A stretch of DNA of 64,000 bases. Origin: an uncultured Candidatus Peregrinibacteria bacterium (GTDB lineage Bacteria > Patescibacteriota > Gracilibacteria > UBA1369). The position numbers and the translations under genes were made by a program. A model generated the notes under the pieces. The model was not told where the DNA came from and searched no databases. It worked only from the letters and a program-made list of their open reading frames with translations. Of this stretch, positions 5,747 through 15,573 are shown one piece after another (position 1 is the first letter of the stretch; each line of letters opens with the position of its first letter). The stretch is from NCBI GenBank assembly GCA_937858825.1, contig CALMAI010000023.1:1-64000 (forward strand), given 5' to 3'.

Positions 5747-6463
5747 TTAAGTTATAAGTGTTCCAATATCCTGCCCTTTCACCACGCGCGCAATGTTTCC
5801 TTTCTTGGTTAGATTAAACACCGCAATCGGGAGCTTATTATCAGCACAAAGTGACACAGCACTCAAGTCCATTACCTCCAGTCCCATATCCAGAACTTTG
5901 TGATACGACAGTTTCTTGAACTTCTTGGCATCTTTATGTTTCACCGGATCTTTATCATACACATAATCAACCTTTGTCGCTTTCATGAGCACGTCACAGT
6001 TGAGTTCCAACGCCCGGAGCGCCGCAGCTGTATCCGTTGTAAAGAATGGATTTCCGGTCCCACCCGCGCAAATAACAATCTTTCCTTTGCCAAGGTAGGC
6101 CAGCCCTTTCTCCACCAAATACGTTTCAACCACCACCGGCATGGCAAAAGCCGAAAGCGGCCTCGCGTCGATTTTAAATTTCCGGAAACCGTTCCTCAAC
6201 GCAAGCGAGTTCATAATCGTCGCCATCATCCCCATATAGTCGGAATGCACACGATCAATTCCTGATTCCACAAAATCCCGATACCGCCAGAAATTTCCAC
6301 CTCCAATCACAATCACCACCTCAACTCCCATTTTCTTCACGGCTGTCACCTCTTTACAGAGCTGTTCAACCATTGAAAAATCGATACCACTCCCCTTTTC
6401 GCCCTCCAGAACTTCTCCGGACAGTTTGAGCATGATCCGTTTATATTTGAGCCGCTTGGCCAT
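5747..6463 (-). CDS. pyrH: Uridylate kinase (UMP kinase)
   Basis: 238 residues, typical of the bacterial amino-acid-kinase-fold UMP kinase that phosphorylates UMP to UDP in pyrimidine synthesis. Visible motifs are KLSGEVLEGEKGSGID at the N-terminus, VIVIGGGNFWRYRDF for phosphate binding, DYMGMMATIMNSLALR, the glycine loop ICAGGTGNPFFTTDTAAALRA, and KATKVDYVYDKDPVKHKDAKK. The C-terminus (KGNIARVVKGQDIGTLI) is complete. It is followed closely by frr and preceded by the Lys-rich tail-anchored gene with a 3-base gap, so all of these probably form one transcript. Confidence 0.96.
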   Translation of the reverse strand: MAKRLKYKRIMLKLSGEVLEGEKGSGIDFSMVEQLCKEVTAVKKMGVEVVIVIGGGNFWRYRDFVESGIDRVHSDYMGMMATIMNSLALRNGFRKFKIDARPLSAFAMPVVVETYLVEKGLAYLGKGKIVICAGGTGNPFFTTDTAAALRALELNCDVLMKATKVDYVYDKDPVKHKDAKKFKKLSYHKVLDMGLEVMDLSAVSLCADNKLPIAVFNLTKKGNIARVVKGQDIGTLIT

Positions 6464-6466
6464 AGT

Positions 6467-7282
6467 CTATGTTGAAAAGAATATATAGGTCAGCACCACT
6501 CCCAGTGCAATTCCCACCAAAAAAACGAGTGGCACCCGCCGCTCTTCGCGTTGATCACGGCTGCTGGCCAGCTCTGTTAAAAGATTTGCTTCCATAATCA
6601 GCTCTTTTTCCGCATTTTCCGCGACCACCTCTTCCATGTCATGGTTCGTCACCAGGTTCACAAAAGTCCCAAAGCGCACTTTAATAATGTCTTTGGGTGG
6701 AATGTTTTCAATATCCGAAACAGAAGAGACTGAATCAAAGTCATCCGTTGAATCAACATCGTCGAGGTCGTCGACCGGTTCAACCCGCATAGAAGGTTTC
6801 CGGATCGGGTGATAGCTCATGTCCAAATTGTCGCCTTGGTCTTCCATAGATTCAATGTCATCGGTGAGTTGGTCTACCGCGTCCACTAACGGTTCGATTT
6901 TCGGCGTGACATCGTCCAATTGTCGTATCGTAAAGGTATTGGTCGGCGCTTCATTCGCGCTCAGCGATGAAATCTTCATTGGTGCTTCTACTTCGACTTT
7001 TACTGGCGTCTCCGCTTCAACGTTTACCACGTTTTTTCTCACACTTTTAGTCGTTCTCCCGGACGACACTTTTGTTGAGCGAGTTTTTTTCGTTAATGTA
7101 ATGCTTTGGGTGCTTTTGGCCTTTGTCGATTTTGGTGTCTTTTTGGTACTTTTGACCTTGGCACTCCCAGCTGTCTTGGCTTTTCCCCTGGCGGCTTTTG
7201 TACTAGCCTTTTTCTCCGATTTCCGAGGGGTCGAAGTCATCTTCTTTTTCCCAGTTTTTGAGGATGATTTCTTAGTAGCCAT
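6467..7282 (-). CDS. Lys/Thr/Ser-rich protein with C-terminal membrane anchor
   Basis: 271 residues, family not recognised. Residues 1-85 are extremely rich in Lys, Ser, Thr and Ala (KKSSSKTGKKKMTSTPRKSEKK pattern), like histone H1 tails. The middle is acidic with many Asp (DDLDDVDSTDDFDSV). Residues about 245-268 form a single hydrophobic helix (LVFLVGIALGVVLTYIFF), so the protein is probably tail-anchored with the basic part in the cytoplasm, where it could contact nucleic acid. The PPKDIIKVRFGTFVNLVTNHDMEEVV segment looks folded. It heads the pyrH-frr-rseP run and starts just upstream of the groEL terminator. The function is unknown. Confidence 0.6.
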   Translation of the reverse strand: MATKKSSSKTGKKKMTSTPRKSEKKASTKAARGKAKTAGSAKVKSTKKTPKSTKAKSTQSITLTKKTRSTKVSSGRTTKSVRKNVVNVEAETPVKVEVEAPMKISSLSANEAPTNTFTIRQLDDVTPKIEPLVDAVDQLTDDIESMEDQGDNLDMSYHPIRKPSMRVEPVDDLDDVDSTDDFDSVSSVSDIENIPPKDIIKVRFGTFVNLVTNHDMEEVVAENAEKELIMEANLLTELASSRDQREERRVPLVFLVGIALGVVLTYIFFST

Positions 7283-7382: not shown

Positions 7383-9029
<1,647 letters not shown>

Positions 9030-9046
9030 TTAAAGATATATGAAAA

Positions 9047-9343
9047 TTACTCAATCACAGCCAGGATGTCTGACTGACTCAGAATAAGAAGTTCCTTCCC
9101 ATCCAGCTTCACTTCAGTTGGGCCATATTTGGTAAAAAGAACCGTGTCCCCTTCCTTTATATCCATTGGCATCCGTTTACCATCTTCATCATATTTTCCC
9201 GGTCCCACCGCTAAAACTTTTCCCTTTTGAGGTTTTTCCTTGGAACCAGTACCCGGAATAATCAACCCGGAAGAATGGTTCATCTCTTCCTCAACCGCCT
9301 CGACAAGAATGTTATCCATAAGCGGACGAAGTTTGCTCGACAT
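9047..9343 (-). CDS. groS: Co-chaperonin GroES (10 kDa)
   Basis: 98 residues, the normal length. GroES caps the GroEL ring. Sequence features: [16 protein letters not shown] at the start, the mobile loop ([28 protein letters not shown]), then [34 protein letters not shown]. It is the first gene of the groES-groEL operon and starts about 45 bases downstream of its -10 element. The start has no Shine-Dalgarno sequence. Confidence 0.97.
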
Positions 9344-9386
9344 AGTTATGTAAAGTTAAAGATTATGTATTTCAAATGCATCAGGC

Positions 9387-9421
9387 ATTGTACCTTAGCA
9401 CACAGGAGCGTCAAGTGCTAA
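9387..9421 (-). promoter_or_regulatory. groESL promoter overlapped by a CIRCE-like HrcA operator
   Basis: The plus strand reads TTAGCACAC (9395-9403), nine bases, then AAGTGCTAA (9413-9421). The CIRCE consensus is TTAGCACTC-N9-GAGTGCTAA, so seven outer bases per arm and the spacing are exact. On the minus strand TTGACG (9409-9414) and TACAAT (9387-9392) with a 16-base spacer form a sigma-70-type promoter lying inside the operator. HrcA repression of the chaperonin operon is the established role of such sites. hrcA itself is not in the window. Confidence 0.85.
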
Positions 9422-9445
9422 GAGGTATTATGATATGATACTTCC

Positions 9446-9952
9446 ATGATTTTCCTCCGTCCCGACATTCTGGTCCTCATCCTTACCGCGATCATTCTTT
9501 CAACATTGATCCTCGCCAATAAAAAACAGTGGCTCCCCTACCTTGGGATTGCCCTTACCATTTCAGTCATCTGGAACCTCTTCGCCTCCAGCCAATACGG
9601 ATACAACCAGACATTTTTATCAATCGGGCCTATTAGCATTTTTCCACTCCTGGCCTGGATGATTGGACTCTTCTCTCTCCATATACTTTATATATCGGTC
9701 CTCCCCCGTACCTCTTTTGAAGGTTTCACAAAACAACTCCTCTTTTATATAGCCCTTTATTGGCCGATCCTTTTAATCGCGGAAACAATTGGATACCACT
9801 CCCTTAACATAAAAAACAGCGCCGCGGCGCAATACCCCGGACTTCCTTTCTGTGACTGCCTCCACGCACCCTTGTGGATGCAGATTGCGTACCTTATGAT
9901 TGGACCTGCATACTTTCTCTGTGTGAATTTTGTGCCTTTAAAAAGGGCTTAG
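9446..9952 (+). CDS. Polytopic membrane protein of unknown function
   Basis: 168 residues with about five hydrophobic helices (about 7-25, 31-48, 60-85, 98-118 and 142-162). A short conserved-looking stretch, ETIGYHSLNIKN followed by YPGLPFCDCLHAPLWMQIAY, carries two Cys and two His between the last helices and is the likeliest functional site. I do not recognise the family with certainty; small carotenoid-pathway membrane enzymes have a similar size and layout, but that is only a thought. It is divergent from groES, with its start 25 bases past the CIRCE-like arm, so the operator could affect it too. Confidence 0.5.
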   Translation: MIFLRPDILVLILTAIILSTLILANKKQWLPYLGIALTISVIWNLFASSQYGYNQTFLSIGPISIFPLLAWMIGLFSLHILYISVLPRTSFEGFTKQLLFYIALYWPILLIAETIGYHSLNIKNSAAAQYPGLPFCDCLHAPLWMQIAYLMIGPAYFLCVNFVPLKRA

Positions 9953-10124
9953 GGCTATTTCCTGGAAAAATTCTTTCGCCCAGAAGGCGAGTTATATGAA
10001 ATACATATTTTCCTTTTGGGGCTATCGCCCCAGCTCTTAAAAAGAATCCGATTTTGTTTTTCTTTTTTATAGAGGGAAAATATAATGTGTTTCCTCCGCT
10101 ACGCTACAGAGCCACTTAATAATT
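9953..10124. other. Gene-free gap with two short hairpins at the left edge of the accessory block
   Basis: Two GC-rich hairpins stand out in AT-rich sequence: TCGCC/GGCGA at 9976-9990 and GGGGC/GCCCC at 10018-10031. Either could stop transcription from the preceding gene, but neither is followed directly by a clear T run. A TATAAT-like element at about 10081 (after GGGAAAA) may serve the nuclease gene. No attC-like arms were found here. Confidence 0.35.
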
Positions 10125-11489
10125 ATGATTATAAGACCAAGACTGAACGACTACCATGGATTACTCTTTACTCAAGAAGAAGTAGATTTTGCAATTCCAT
10201 TCTTAGACGAAGATATCCCTCTCTACTTAGACCCTTTTCTTCTTTGGAAAAGTCCATCTCAAATGGACAATAGCCTACACACAACATTAACAAATTGTTT
10301 CAATTATTTAGGGCAAACTTATCTTAAAGACGAAGGCAAAGCCATTGAAATGTTAAAAGAAATATCAGAATGTGATGAGGTTGGTTTAGGAAATTCAAAA
10401 ACCAAAAAAGGCAAAAAGATTGGTAATGACTTTGCAAACAAAATTCTTTCAACCTTCAAGGATATCCCACAAGTCAACAAAAACGGCTTTACGCATTTTG
10501 AGACATTGCAACTACTCGTCGAAAATTTTTCTAAAGATCGAGTTAGTGATATAGCGTGCAATTTTATCAAATCATTTCTGATCGATTACACCATTCAGGA
10601 ATCAAAAAAACTTAATATTCCACTTGAAAGTACTGAAATTCAATATTTTGATACAAAAAAATTAAAAATTGTAACTGAAAAAGTGGAGCTACCAGTTAAC
10701 CCTAATACAAAAACGCCCATTCTTCTAACTCCAAAAAGATGGCTTCGTTTTGTGCCATGGATAAGCTTTGAAAACTATTTTTCAGAGTACATCGCTACCT
10801 CTCAAAAAGTATTAGAAGGAAGCCCTATCAGCAGAGTGGCGATATTAGAATATAACAGGGCAAATTATGAGCAAGTGCAGACCTACATCGAAAGAAGACA
10901 ACTTGAACAGAAAGATTGTAAAAATGACCCATTATTCAGTCAAATTCCAATTTTGTCATCCAAAAGGAAAAAGAATACCATTTTAAAACTACCAACAGGA
11001 AAGACTGATAATGCAGACAAGGCTTATGAGGATAATCTATGCCCACTTTTAGCTTCAATGCTCTACCCTGAACTAGATTTTGCTCAACCTCAGAGCCGAA
11101 CAATTTCGGGCGTACTCATCCGAGATTTAATTTTTTACAACAACATATCTCATCCACTCCTTAAAGAGATATATGAAAATTTTGAAAGTAAACAATTGGT
11201 GTTTGAGCTCAAAAATGTAAAAGACGTGAATACAACACACATTAACCAGCTAAATAGATATCTAAACGAAGAATTTGGTAATTTTGGAATAATCTTCGCA
11301 AGAAACAAGCCACCCAAAAAAGTTTTCCAAAACACAATTAACCTATGGGCTGGACAAAGGAAATGTATACTAATCCTTGATGACACTGACCTAGAAATAA
11401 TGTGCCAAGTTTATGAAAATAAACAACGCAAACCGCTTGATGTTATCAATAAAAAATACAGAGAATTTATCAGAGCATGCCCCTCATAA
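10125..11489 (+). CDS. Putative PD-(D/E)XK nuclease-like protein of an unassigned three-gene module
   Basis: 454 residues. The N-terminal half (MIIRPRLNDYHGLLFTQEEV, then DPFLLWKSPS and ECDEVGLGNSKTKKGKKIG) looks like a conserved domain that I cannot name. The C-terminal region has the order expected of a PD-(D/E)XK nuclease core: Glu302 in a helix, Asp334 in IRDLIFYN, Glu361-Leu-Lys363 in FELKN after a strand, then Gln375 and Tyr379 in a helix (QLNRYL). This is an inference from motif order. The DNA is much more AT-rich than the core genes, with A/T-ending codons, suggesting recent transfer. Two small paralogous genes follow within 17 and 11 bases, so the three are probably one operon. A defence or DNA-processing role is plausible but unproven. 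Confidence 0.6.
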   Translation: MIIRPRLNDYHGLLFTQEEVDFAIPFLDEDIPLYLDPFLLWKSPSQMDNSLHTTLTNCFNYLGQTYLKDEGKAIEMLKEISECDEVGLGNSKTKKGKKIGNDFANKILSTFKDIPQVNKNGFTHFETLQLLVENFSKDRVSDIACNFIKSFLIDYTIQESKKLNIPLESTEIQYFDTKKLKIVTEKVELPVNPNTKTPILLTPKRWLRFVPWISFENYFSEYIATSQKVLEGSPISRVAILEYNRANYEQVQTYIERRQLEQKDCKNDPLFSQIPILSSKRKKNTILKLPTGKTDNADKAYEDNLCPLLASMLYPELDFAQPQSRTISGVLIRDLIFYNNISHPLLKEIYENFESKQLVFELKNVKDVNTTHINQLNRYLNEEFGNFGIIFARNKPPKKVFQNTINLWAGQRKCILILDDTDLEIMCQVYENKQRKPLDVINKKYREFIRACPS

Positions 11490-11506
11490 AAAACTAACTT
11501 ATCATT

Positions 11507-11890
11507 ATGAATACACAACAAATTGAAACCTTCCTAAAACTACAACCACAGTTAAAAAGTGCATATGAAGAAATAAGTCTACTTTCAAAGAAAAAACCCA
11601 CAGATCAACTTAACAAATTTAAGTTAAAATTCATCAACAGCATCCTCTCAAGAGCAAACGGGATTTTAGCAAAAAAATATCAACCATTTCCGGATGAATT
11701 TGAATTGTTTGATGAAGACGATATGCCCAACAATGGAGATGTTGTATTCATTCTTTCACATTATCTAACTTCCTTGGAGAAATTGAGATGTGACAATATT
11801 GAAAGAGAGAGTGAATATCCACACTACTGGTATTGGAAAACAAATAATAAGCTCTCAGATAAAAGAACTGATCCACCTACAATAAAATAA
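11507..11890 (+). CDS. Small protein, first of two tandem paralogues next to the nuclease-like gene
   Basis: 127 residues, mostly helical, no signal peptide or membrane helix. It shares a core with the next gene: LLSKKK-x3/4-QLN-x2-K-x-K (about residues 25-42) and ED-x2-P-x-N-x-DVV-x-I-x-S-x-Y-x-T-x2-E (about 70-92). No known domain recognised. It lies 17 bases after the nuclease-like gene and 11 bases before its paralogue, with the same AT-rich base use. Possible roles include a partner or inhibitor of the nuclease-like protein. Confidence 0.55.
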   Translation: MNTQQIETFLKLQPQLKSAYEEISLLSKKKPTDQLNKFKLKFINSILSRANGILAKKYQPFPDEFELFDEDDMPNNGDVVFILSHYLTSLEKLRCDNIERESEYPHYWYWKTNNKLSDKRTDPPTIK

Positions 11891-11901
11891 TTCCACAAAA
11901 T

Positions 11902-12354
11902 ATGAAAAAAGATGATAATTGGCTACCAAGTGAAAAGGATATTGAGAATTACCAACTCCTAAAGGATATGTTACAAGCACAAAGGCAAGAGTTTGATTTG
12001 TTGAGCAAAAAGAAAGCTGACGGTCAATTAAATCCAATGAAGATTAAAATGGTTAATAGAGTTCTTGAGCCACTAAATAAATTATTTAAACATGAACCAT
12101 CCCATGATTTTTTGGATAAAATTAGTGAAGATGAAATTCCTACAAACAGCGATGTTGTATTAATAATTAGCCAATATGAAACCGCTATTGAAGAATTCAA
12201 AAAAAAGTACCACAGAAAAGACGGACACAAATCATCCTACTTAAATAATGTGTACAGATGGATGACAAAAGAATATCCGCCGGATTTTTATGAAGGAGAA
12301 GATGTTGAAAGTGAATATGAGGAAGATGATGAAGACACAGAAATACCTGAATAA
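11902..12354 (+). CDS. Small protein, second of two tandem paralogues
   Basis: 150 residues. It repeats the core of the preceding gene (FDLLSKKKADGQLNPMKIK at about 31-49; SEDEIPTNSDVVLIISQYETAIEEF at about 75-99) and adds a distinct tail with an aromatic patch (YRWMTKEYPPDFY) and a very acidic end (EDVESEYEEDDEDTEIPE). An acidic tail of this kind can mimic nucleic acid or mediate protein contacts, which is inference. The pair looks like a tandem duplication followed by divergence. It ends the three-gene module; a terminator-like hairpin follows. Confidence 0.55.
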   Translation: MKKDDNWLPSEKDIENYQLLKDMLQAQRQEFDLLSKKKADGQLNPMKIKMVNRVLEPLNKLFKHEPSHDFLDKISEDEIPTNSDVVLIISQYETAIEEFKKKYHRKDGHKSSYLNNVYRWMTKEYPPDFYEGEDVESEYEEDDEDTEIPE

Positions 12355-12357
12355 GGT

Positions 12358-12407
12358 GTTTTGGGCTCGGACATTCGCCCCTAACCCCTCTGCCCTTCGC
12401 CCAAAAC
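12358..12407 (+). terminator. Terminator-like inverted repeat after the nuclease module
   Basis: GTTTTGGGC at 12358-12366 pairs perfectly with GCCCAAAAC at 12399-12407, beginning three bases after the stop codon. The loop is 32 bases and C-rich, and no U tract follows immediately, so it is a weak terminator candidate or another structural element. Confidence 0.35.
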
Positions 12408-12479
12408 GAAAACAAAATCGATTCTTTCTTTTTAGGGGGCAATTTCTTCCAGAAATTAAAGGAAAAAATGTACATCATA

Positions 12480-12600
12480 TAACAGCGTGTATGTGGTTCA
12501 TTCGCTTCACTTCGTTACACTCATTTACCCATATTTGCGGGTGATCCGCCTTCGGCGTATTATATCACCCGCAAATATCGCCTATACCTAGACGTTAGCT
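12480..12600 (+). repeat. attC-like recombination site (first of two)
   Basis: A 120-base imperfect palindrome lies in a gene-free gap of 280 bases. The outer boxes are TAAC (12480-12483) and GTTA (12594-12597). Inside, GTGTATGTGG faces CGCCTATACC, partly complementary with mismatches. A perfect 15-base stem follows (12531-12545 with 12564-12578), capped by CGCC-TTC-GGCG. This layout of outer R boxes, inner L boxes and a structured centre is that of integron attC sites. Its first bases, TAACAGC-N3-TATG-N-GG, are shared with the second site at 13355. No integrase is present in the window. Confidence 0.5.
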
Positions 12601-12634
12601 GAATATCCTTTGTTTTTTTTAATCCACAATTACT

Positions 12635-12949
12635 ATGAAACAATTAGATGAGAAAAATTTCGAACAAGCCCTGAATAACCATCCAGTCACGGGATCATTT
12701 ATCCTAAACAAAAAGTATGTTCTCGACTATACATTTGAAAGCCTACACCTTCTGGATCTAAAAATAACCAATGGCAGTTTTACATGCAGTCTTTTCCAAA
12801 AATGCACCTTCAAAAATGTAATTTTTGAATCGGTTCATTTAGATGACTGTAATTTTAGGAATTGCACCTTTAAAAATACAACGTTCAAAAATTGCACAAC
12901 TGAAGGCATTGAATTCGATAATTGTACAGATATGCCAAAAATTATGTAG
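12635..12949 (+). CDS. Small pentapeptide-repeat-like protein
   Basis: 104 residues. The second half repeats a five-residue pattern with central Phe/Leu (CTFKN, VIFES, VHLDD, CNFRN, CTFKN, TTFKN), which folds as a right-handed quadrilateral beta helix in the pentapeptide-repeat family. Many Cys and Asn are present. Such proteins can mimic DNA (Qnr, MfpA) or mediate binding, but this one has only about eight units and its function is open. It is flanked by the first attC-like site and by a strong-SD gene, consistent with a mobile cassette. An inverted repeat CACCATAA/TTATGGTG (12955-12995) follows it. Confidence 0.65.
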   Translation: MKQLDEKNFEQALNNHPVTGSFILNKKYVLDYTFESLHLLDLKITNGSFTCSLFQKCTFKNVIFESVHLDDCNFRNCTFKNTTFKNCTTEGIEFDNCTDMPKIM

Positions 12950-13033
12950 AACCTCACCATAAGGGCTTGTTCAAAATTAACAATTTTTTATGGTGGGGAA
13001 TGTCTACATGCCGTAACACATGGGGAGGTCTCA

Positions 13034-13255
13034 ATGGCCACTCTCAAGCGACACGAGCGTCCTGATGGAACTTATCTCGTCTACTGGGAAGGTGACAACA
13101 TGCATCTGAACCACTGGCACGTTGCCAGTGACGGCACCGTGCTCTCTGTGAAGGAAGGAGGTAACCACAAGTACAACCGCGGACACATCCGCAAGAAAAT
13201 CAGTGAAGTCACGGGAATCAGCTGGGAAATCGGCTGGCGACCCAACAATGACTGA
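13034..13255 (+). CDS. 73-residue protein of unknown family, probably foreign
   Basis: 73 residues, rich in His, Trp and Gly (DGTYLVYWEGDNMHLNHWHV; HVASDGTVLSVKEGG; ending SWEIGWRPNND). No family recognised. It looks like a small all-beta fold with a basic stretch, KYNRGHIRKK. Its codons are GC-ending and its base composition is richer in GC than that of both neighbours. Uniquely in this region it has a strong Shine-Dalgarno sequence (GGGGAGG, five bases from ATG), and it ends at its own terminator. These signs indicate that it comes from a different donor than the surrounding genes. It lies between the two attC-like sites. Confidence 0.55.
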   Translation: MATLKRHERPDGTYLVYWEGDNMHLNHWHVASDGTVLSVKEGGNHKYNRGHIRKKISEVTGISWEIGWRPNND

Positions 13256-13294
13256 ATCCACCTAGACATGTGCGACATTCTCCCACCTACCTTT

Positions 13295-13325
13295 GAGGGC
13301 TTTCTATCACAGAAAGCCCTCTTTC
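13295..13325 (+). terminator. Rho-independent terminator after the 73-residue gene
   Basis: GAGGGCTTTCT (13295-13305) and AGAAAGCCCTC (13311-13321) form a perfect 11-base stem with a five-base loop, followed by TTTCC. It lies 40 bases beyond the stop codon. Confidence 0.8.
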
Positions 13326-13353
13326 CTCACATAAAAAACAAAAGATGCATCAG

Positions 13354-13467
13354 CTAACAGCAACTATGCGGCTACACTTCGCTGGTGCTCGCTTCACCCA
13401 AGTTGACCAGGTTTTAGCCTTCGGCTATTTTAAACCCGATCAACTTCGCATTAGTTGCGGCCGTTAT
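13354..13467 (+). repeat. attC-like recombination site (second of two)
   Basis: Outer boxes CTAAC (13354-13358) and GTTA (13463-13466). The inner arms GCAACTATGCG (13360-13370) and CGCATTAGTTGC (13447-13458) are complementary except for one extra base in the right arm, which would be extrahelical in the folded strand, a hallmark of attC sites. The centre holds AAGTTGA/TCAACTT (13400-13406 with 13440-13446) and TAGCC/GGCTA. The first 7 bases and the TATG-N-GG that follows match the first site. The right box overlaps the next open frame's earliest ATG. Confidence 0.55.
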
Positions 13468-13483
13468 GCATAAATTCCCTACA

Positions 13484-13786
13484 ATGAAACAAAAAAAACA
13501 AGAACCATCAGATCTTCGCAGATATATTACTATCTGGACCATGCCACTAGTAATCTTATCAGTAGGTTTATTGTGGGACGGTCACTGGAGAAGTCATCCA
13601 GAAGTAAACATACCTGCAATACTCATTTTAATTTTATTTTTCGCAAACTTTGTCATAATGACACTTCTCTCAATGCGCATAAAAAAATACATACCTCTAA
13701 TTATGATTAATTATGCACTACAAGCATTCGTGACCTTTATAGTAAGCATTATGTCATTCATAGCTGTCACCGGAAATGTAATTTAA
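13484..13786 (+). CDS. Small membrane protein with three predicted helices
   Basis: 100 residues from ATG 13484; an earlier in-frame ATG at 13466 lies inside the right box of the attC-like site and is less likely. After a basic, Gln/Lys-rich N-terminus come three hydrophobic helices (about 18-33, 44-62 and 69-95 of the short form), with GLLWDGHWRSHPEVNIPA between the first two. No family recognised. A membrane protein placed directly after an attC-like site is common in cassette arrays. The stop is followed at once by TGCGGCTGTTAC and the next start. Confidence 0.5.
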   Translation: MKQKKQEPSDLRRYITIWTMPLVILSVGLLWDGHWRSHPEVNIPAILILILFFANFVIMTLLSMRIKKYIPLIMINYALQAFVTFIVSIMSFIAVTGNVI

Positions 13787-13798
13787 TGCGGCTGTTAC

Positions 13799-14326
13799 AT
13801 GAAATACAGAGCACTACTCAGAGGAATAAATGTTGGCGGAAATCATAAAGTTGAGATGAAAAAGCTCAAGACATTATTTGAAGCTCTTGGCTGCATAAAT
13901 GTTTCAACCTATATAAATTCCGGCAATGTCATTTTTGAATCAAAAGAGAATCAAAAAAATATTTTGAAAAAAGTTGAAGACGAATTAAAGCAAGAGTTTG
14001 GATTTGAAATTCCCATCCTCATTAAAACAGAGAGGGAAATGAAAAAGATCGCAGATTCCATACCGGACAATTGGCAAAATGATTCAGCTCAAAGAACAGA
14101 TGTTGCCTATTTGTTCCCAGAAATAGATTCGATAAAAATTCTAGATGAGCTCCCTCTCAAAAAAGAGTTCATTGAAGTTCGTTATATTAAAGGAGCGATC
14201 TATTGGAATGTTAAAAGAGAAAACGTTTACAAAAGCCAATTGGCCAAATTAATTAGCCATAAACTCTATAAGTCGATGACGGTAAGAAATGTTAATACCG
14301 CCAGGTATTTGGCAGGAATAGCATAA
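13799..14326 (+). CDS. DUF1697 family protein
   Basis: 175 residues, full length for DUF1697. The hallmark start YRALLRGINVGGNHKVEMKKLKTLFEALG and the STYINSGNVIFES strand are clear, as is the end LYKSMTVRNVNTARYLAGIA. The structure of family members is a ferredoxin-like fold; the biochemical role is unknown. The family occurs sporadically in Firmicutes, Actinobacteria and Bacteroidetes and often travels with other short accessory genes, as here. It starts 12 bases after the preceding stop. Confidence 0.88.
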   Translation: MKYRALLRGINVGGNHKVEMKKLKTLFEALGCINVSTYINSGNVIFESKENQKNILKKVEDELKQEFGFEIPILIKTEREMKKIADSIPDNWQNDSAQRTDVAYLFPEIDSIKILDELPLKKEFIEVRYIKGAIYWNVKRENVYKSQLAKLISHKLYKSMTVRNVNTARYLAGIA

Positions 14327-14376
14327 AAAGGCTTTTGAAAGGCAAAATCCGACAAATATATATTTACAAATCTATT

Positions 14377-14772
14377 GTGAAACCCAAAAACTACAATCCC
14401 CAAGTTACTGATTTCCTAAAAGAGAAGAAGCATCCGCACAATGAAATTATTGAAAAACTAAGAATCATAATTCTATCAACGGATGAATCTCTGGATGAGA
14501 ATATAAAATGGAATGGTCCGAATTACAGTATTAACGGAGAAGATAGAATCACAATGAGATTATTTCCTCCCAAAAGTCTTCAATTAATTTTTCATTGCGG
14601 CGCAAAACCTACTAAAACAGATTTGAAAGATAATCTGATCAAAGATGATAGTGGGCTGTTAGTATGGAAATCTAATGACAGAGCATTAATAAATTTGATT
14701 GAATTAGATGTCGAATCACGTAAAAAAGAACTTATATCCATAATTAAAAAATGGATACAAGCCAGCAAATAA
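14377..14772 (+). CDS. DUF1801 (YdhG-like) family protein
   Basis: About 131 residues from GTG 14377. An in-frame TTG at 14335 would add 14 residues (KGKIRQIYIYKSI) that look less like the family. The core VTDFLKEKKHPHNEIIEKLRIIIL, then ENIKWNGPNYSINGEDRITMRLFPPKSLQLIFHCGAK matches DUF1801, whose YdhG/Fra-like members share a fold with frataxin-like iron proteins. The function is unknown. It sits tightly between the DUF1697 and DUF2200 genes on the same strand. Confidence 0.82.
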   Translation: MKPKNYNPQVTDFLKEKKHPHNEIIEKLRIIILSTDESLDENIKWNGPNYSINGEDRITMRLFPPKSLQLIFHCGAKPTKTDLKDNLIKDDSGLLVWKSNDRALINLIELDVESRKKELISIIKKWIQASK

Positions 14773-14831
14773 ATGCGGCTCTTTAAAAGAAATTTCTTTT
14801 AGAAAATAATATACAAACTTACTCTAATCAT

Positions 14832-15179
14832 ATGAAGAAACAGAAAATATTCACCATGTCCTTCGCAAGTGTATATCCGCTCTATATTAAAAAAGTAGAG
14901 AGAAAAGGCCACACCAAGGCAGAAGTGGACACCATAATTTGCTGGCTCACCGGCTACGACCAAAAATCACTCCAGCAACAAATAGACCAAGAGAAAGACT
15001 TTGAAACCTTTTTCGCGGAAGCGCCACAAATCAATCCAAACGCTTCAAAAATAACAGGAGTTATTTGCGGCTATCGCGTAGAGGAAATTGAAGACAAGCT
15101 GATGCAAAAGATTCGCTACCTTGATAAACTGATTGATGAACTGGCCAAAGGAAAAGCCATGGAAAAAATTTTAAGATGA
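14832..15179 (+). CDS. DUF2200 family protein
   Basis: 115 residues, normal length for DUF2200. Recognisable motifs: [35 protein letters not shown] near the start and the C-terminal [41 protein letters not shown]. Members are single-domain, probably cytosolic, with unknown role. The upstream gap holds an AAAAGAAATTTCTTTT dyad that may end the previous transcript or act as a regulatory site. Confidence 0.88.
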
Positions 15180-15207
15180 ATGATTAAAAACACTCACAGA
15201 AGGCAAT

Positions 15208-15573
15208 ATGAGTACAGCATCCAACAAAATGATCGGTGACTTCTCTTCTAAGCCCAAGACACTCCAATTCTTCAAATCGATTGAAAAATACATCAACTCC
15301 CTTGGTTCCTGCGAAAAAACAATCAAAGCCCAAGTAAGTTATTCAGTGAAACGGAAGTTTCTGTGGCTTTGGGCATACGAAAAAACTGCCGATGGGACAC
15401 TTTATATGACAGTATGCCTCGATAAAAAAATGAATAATCCTCATTTTCACTATGTCGCACAAGTAAGCACAAACAGATGGAACCATCATGTTGTAGTAAA
15501 ATCCAGAGAAATAGCAGAAAGTGACTGGCTAAAACAACTAATGCGTGCAGGGTTTGAATTTGCAAATAAATAA
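15208..15573 (+). CDS. DUF5655 family protein
   Basis: 121 residues. The pattern FKSIEKYINSLGSCEKTIKAQVSYSVKRKFLWLWAYEKT, followed by LYMTVCLDKKMNNPHFHYVAQVSTNRWNHHVVVKSREIAESDWLKQLMRAGFEFA, matches DUF5655, a domain found alone or attached to DUF4287 and predicted nuclease-related proteins. No catalytic residue can be assigned. It is one of the few genes here with a hint of a ribosome site (AGAAGG). It belongs to the short-gene accessory run. Confidence 0.8.
   Translation: MSTASNKMIGDFSSKPKTLQFFKSIEKYINSLGSCEKTIKAQVSYSVKRKFLWLWAYEKTADGTLYMTVCLDKKMNNPHFHYVAQVSTNRWNHHVVVKSREIAESDWLKQLMRAGFEFANK

Follow-up and report, generated by a model that had tools for sequence, protein, structure and literature searches.

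Three gene cassettes and two attC sites lie at positions 9991-13796 of the window, the 64,000-nucleotide stretch of DNA analysed here, as delimited by the cassette junctions and by comparison with a genome of the same genus (G001). The initial annotation of this sequence had recognised the two sites and assigned the segment to 12480-13467; the sites stood, but these coordinates proved too narrow for the array. The features of the locus are the following:

9991..9998, plus strand: left edge of the array and start of cassette 1, junction G|TTATATG
9992..12594, plus strand: cassette 1, a candidate phage-defence system of three genes that closes with attC site 1; the R' and R'' at its two limits are complementary
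10125..11489, plus strand: PDC-M36A-like protein, 454 aa (PADLOC PDLC04597, E 2e-223, 740 bits)
11507..11890, plus strand: PDC-M36B-like protein, 127 aa (PADLOC PDLC04599, E 8e-47)
11902..12354, plus strand: PDC-M36B-like protein, 150 aa (PADLOC PDLC04600, E 6e-36)
12476..12601, plus strand: attC site 1, R'' CATATAAC ... R' GTTAGCTG; folds on the minus strand
12595..13463, plus strand: cassette 2, pentapeptide-repeat protein and 73-aa ORF, closing with attC site 2; R' GTTAGCTG (at 12594) is exactly complementary to R'' CAGCTAAC (at 13351)
12635..12949, plus strand: pentapeptide-repeat protein, 104 aa (PF13599, 4e-9; PF13576, 6e-8)
13034..13255, plus strand: 73-aa ORF, known as an ORF only
13351..13470, plus strand: attC site 2, R'' CAGCTAAC ... 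R' GTTATGCA; a single additional L'-side base
13464..13796, plus strand: cassette 3, 106-aa ORF; homology to the right flank of G001 resumes at 13797, directly after GTT
13799..14326, plus strand: DUF1697 gene of the right flank, outside the cassettes and common to G001 (PF08002, 1e-37)

The stretch 10125-12354 matches the PADLOC candidate system PDC-M36 (an A gene and two B genes) almost at full length, and judged by these matches cassette 1 would be a candidate defence system carried as one integron cassette. No significant Pfam domain was found in the 454-aa PDC-M36A-like protein. Cassette 2 contains the two same-strand genes that had been noticed between the sites at the outset; its 73-aa ORF has no family match in Pfam and PADLOC searches. 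At the right edge of cassette 3, a refined covariance model built from 34 sites (R2) gave no match, and the attC of this cassette has presumably decayed, with GCGGCTGTT left at the edge. Beyond it, 13797-14333 is 97% identical to G001. Genes of the DUF1697, DUF1801, DUF2200 and DUF5655 families follow the array on one strand (13799-15573), with no attC between them, and most are common to G001.

Both sites start with the motif TAACAGC-N3-TATG-N-GG (12480-12496 and 13355-13371), which has no other copy in the 1.32-Mb genome, and have GTTA ends (at 12594 and 13463), as the initial annotation had described. The end boxes R'' (RYYYAAC-like) and R' (GTTRRRY-like) are present, and R' of site 1 and R'' of site 2 are perfect reverse complements, as expected if the intervening segment was once a circle. 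The hairpins proposed for the sites were recovered: as single strands both fold better than dinucleotide shuffles, with minus-strand folds of -23.5 and -26.7 kcal/mol (sites 1 and 2, respectively; z about -4.2) and weaker plus-strand folds of -19.5 and -22.2 kcal/mol. The minus strand is the bottom strand expected for plus-strand genes. Arm pairing is weak in site 1, and the arms of site 2 contain the single extra base that had been read there. A covariance model built from the two window sites alone found no further match in the 1.32 Mb of their own genome, which shows that they are not ordinary genome-wide repeats; neither of the two outcomes named at the outset as speaking against a cassette array, a lack of attC matches or palindromes dispersed between genes across the genome, occurred, and in relatives the same sites build clear cassette arrays. 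An Rfam search returned two tRNAs and no other match. Membership in the sequence type of classical integrons was set aside, since R2 has no match on these, and the sites accordingly represent a distinct sequence type.

The left edge is defined by several observations. The sequence GTTATATG found there is the reverse complement of the R'' box of site 1, homology with G001 on the left side starts exactly at 9991, and this position ranks first among 127,918 positions when scored with an attI matrix. The half upstream of 9991, scored alone, ranks 171st of 2263 GTT positions, which is not significant, and 9991 was for this reason set aside as a proven attI. Tentatively, TTCGCCCAGAAGGCGA upstream of 9991 may be a decayed attI.

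Host genome and cassette turnover

The contig of the array also carries a GroEL gene, about 1 kb away from the left array edge; this GroEL shares 71% identity with that of Ca. Peregrinibacteria GW2011_GWA2_33_10, which identifies the host as a CPR bacterium, as the initial annotation had supposed. In G001 an array stands at the same place as in the window genome (G000), with right flanks that are 89-99% identical; the G001 contig ends at the left flank of its array. The first two G001 cassettes encode an OLD/PtuA-like ATPase and a CAP12/Pycsar-type TIR protein. Since the two genomes thus hold different cassettes at one locus, the cassette content has turned over. The left part of attC site 1 of the window matches the first attC of G001 and the right part matches the second (L124, 9515-9642 and 10436-10558), and the TIR cassette that lies between those two G001 sites is missing from the window. 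On sequence comparison, site 1 therefore looks like a hybrid of two neighbouring G001 sites. This suggests that an exchange between sites removed one cassette, and points to homologous exchange between two attC sites, not integrase action, as the likelier source of site 1.

Genome searches found neither an integrase nor the short recombinase described below in G000 and G001. A search for intI in the window genome, which the initial annotation had suggested, returned only a Xer-like recombinase, and its candidacy as the integrase was ruled out by context and by tree. As the short recombinase is missing from this genome, the window array is a CALIN; the earlier reading of a cassette array without integrase was correct, with two attC sites close together. 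The Xer-like recombinase (G000:C33:41840-42672; L003, L006) is split by a frame change and its G001 copy is intact at 304 aa; the change is either an assembly error or a real loss.

Arrays and a short recombinase in related genomes

With the two-site model, sites were detected in six of the 13 family genomes (own included), in clustered arrays of one gene plus one site, and with E-values, which are rough for covariance models, down to 1e-25 in other genomes. Of the 353 genomes of the class, 138 have sites by R2, which matched nothing in 1.2 Mb of control DNA. Most of the genomes were assembled from metagenomes, and many arrays reach contig ends. Paired positions covary, with 245 double-change cells versus 74 after shuffling and 29-50 after sliding. 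Over 99 cassettes, R' agrees with the R'' of the next site at 4.31 of 5 variable positions, compared with 2.66 for the two boxes of a single site and 2.61 ± 0.11 for random pairs, so that the ends fit together as they would after cutting and joining at R' G|TT. The median length of 107 cassettes is 710 bp, exactly one ORF is present in 91 of them, and their contents are unrelated to one another. The arms of the attC sites pair over 11 bases, with spacers of 1 nt (R''-L'') and 4 nt (L'-R'). A conserved single-strand structure was found for attC sites, with both strands compared for the two window sites only. No extrahelical base occurs in 110 of 118 sites, and the classical criterion of an extrahelical base in L'' therefore does not describe CPR-type attC; the same routine located that base in five out of five classical control sites.

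A tyrosine recombinase of about 270 aa is encoded by 110 of the 353 class genomes. Both attC and recombinase are found in 90 genomes, attC only in 48, the recombinase only in 20 and neither in 195, counts that ignore shared ancestry. Among 18 fetched recombinase loci without attC, 13 end within about 1.5 kb on the expected array side. Where a fetched locus contains attC as well as the recombinase (30 loci), every one of the 104 sites is in integron order and orientation relative to the recombinase, which stands at the array head and is divergent from the cassettes. An attI junction predicted from the R'' of the first site is present with all 9 bases in 22 of 28 loci; most of these junctions are no more than about 120 bp away from the recombinase ORF, and they follow a conserved TTCGCATAAAAACGA.

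The catalytic residues R137, K162, H226, R229, H252 and Y261 are invariant (alignment A8), and the IntI-specific I2 insert with its ALER motif is absent from an alignment of 27 members. In the class search, all short recombinases score below the TIGR02249 cut-off. The closest solved structure is IntI4 (2a3v), which aligns on both sides of the I2 region and leaves a gap at 2a3v 185-237. Phylogenetic trees place the short recombinase on the IntI side of the IntI/Xer split (support 99/98 and 99/96), as a clade that is itself separate from Xer (100/99 and 100/97); how IntI, the short recombinase and I2-less phage relatives are related to one another is weakly resolved (93/73). In some families the recombinase genes contain in-frame TGA codons, several of which fall on invariant glycine positions, as is expected of lineages that read TGA as glycine, and these genes are thus native. 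The distribution extends to other classes of the phylum, to which 33 of the 51 holders in a 380-genome phylum sample belong, and R2 sites adjoin the recombinase in most of the fetched out-of-class loci. No match above 218 bits was found in 37 genomes from other phyla, whereas Patescibacteria members mostly score 270-450.

Nature of the system and relation to known integrons

The window sites are very probably attC of an integrase-less array (CALIN) that belongs to a Patescibacteria (CPR) integron system, the putative integrase of which is by its sequence allied to IntI and devoid of I2. The short recombinase would excise circular cassettes and insert them at attI and attC, as homology, architecture and the footprint at the cassette ends suggest, and on the same basis strand exchange would most likely take place at G|TT on the folded bottom strand of attC, as it does with IntI. 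Recognition of attC would not depend on the docking of an extrahelical base in I2 but on another feature, for which the asymmetric R-L box spacer, 1 nt versus 4 nt, is a candidate cue. The cassettes of the window genome, including the candidate phage-defence system, would be movable only by an integrase supplied in trans.

Three other origins of the array have to be weighed. Its cassettes could have been placed by a classical IntI from another bacterium, which would make the array a passive CALIN and the short recombinase a bystander. G000 and G001 have no integrase, CALINs are common in bacteria and archaea (PMC9668308), and a full classical IntI (460 bits) is indeed present in one assembly of the same family (G012:C21, L101). 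It is, however, the only IntI above cut-off in the 353 genomes, and its 4.1-kb contig has 51% GC, as against 38% in another contig of that genome. This IntI shares 60% identity with a cyanobacterial one, and the attC sites that accompany it are classical and not of the CPR type. We discarded it, its contig being probably a contaminant. With the short recombinase heading arrays that have a matching attI, placement by a classical IntI is improbable.

Movement of the cassettes by a host recombinase of the XerC/XerD type, as in mobile elements that exploit Xer, is less probable again. Family genomes contain a housekeeping Xer-like recombinase, and Xer is known to use hairpin DNA (CTX phage, PMC7790495), but the array-head recombinase forms a clade apart from Xer, the sites carry R''/R' boxes and an attI rather than a dif-like site, and the Xer reading frame of G000 is interrupted. 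A reading of the palindromes as transcription terminators, or as dispersed repeats that multiplied by copying, would fit the position of the hairpins downstream of genes; it is contradicted by the presence of only two in the genome, by R'/R'' pairing across cassettes, by the attI junctions and by the unrelated cassette content, and its probability is close to nil.

The Patescibacteria system favoured here resembles classical integrons (class 1, Vibrio type) in its divergent integrase at the array head, its attI and its one-gene cassettes, and also in the R'' (..YAAC) and R' (GTTR..) boxes, the G|TT crossover, the more stable bottom strand and sites of about 120 nt. It differs from them in its hosts, which are Patescibacteria, in an integrase without the I2 domain (the ALER region of IntI1), and in attC arms that are perfectly paired over 11 bp without an extrahelical base and flanked by spacers of 1 nt and 4 nt. 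The window copy is like a CALIN, with two attC sites and three cassettes in a genome without integrase. It is unlike CALINs as known, since its attC are of the CPR type and the complete systems of relatives rely on an integrase without I2. Archaeal integrons are comparable in that their hosts, too, lie beyond the usual bacterial phyla and that most were found in metagenome assemblies as CALINs, whereas archaeal IntIs keep the additional domain that CPR recombinases do not have (PMC9668308). The short recombinase shares length, fold family and the lack of I2 with XerA, XerC and XerD (PDB 4a8e, 5hxy, 1a0p), and one member scores 219 with NF040815 (XerA_Arch), just under the cut-off of 220. In contrast to these proteins, it forms a separate clade tied to attC arrays and attI, and its closest solved structure is IntI4.

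I2 has been reported as necessary for cassette capture and as present in no other protein (PMC7790495, eLife), and its gain is the presumed step that created integrons, for which intermediates are lacking (PMC7790495). Here, I2 is absent from the enzyme and the extrahelical base from the sites, so that two matching parts are lacking together. It is quite possible, if still tentative, that Patescibacteria integrons recombine folded attC without I2 and without extrahelical bases, either as a surviving pre-I2 form or as a parallel solution, in which case I2 would not be required for cassette capture. In the open-access literature searched, integrons are not described for Patescibacteria, CPR, Peregrinibacteria, Gracilibacteria or Parcubacteria, and an earlier report may exist among preprints or in subscription journals. 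A widespread I2-less relative that heads attC arrays would provide natural enzymes for testing the origin of single-strand recombination, and would constitute a gene-capture platform in bacteria of small genome size, with defence and toxin-antitoxin-like genes among its cargo. Software that requires an IntI domain would see CALINs at best.

Within the short clade, one member of 324 aa (L163, G252:C73; recombinase 1339-2313, attC 127-259) has about 33 extra residues at the position of I2 without ALER, possibly an independent insertion at the same place. An I2-less recombinase is also encoded on a contig classed as viral (L272, IMGVR_UViG_3300000568_000548) at 6001-6837; four weak attC-like sites lie at 8485-11906, and the recombinase is co-directional with the cassettes.
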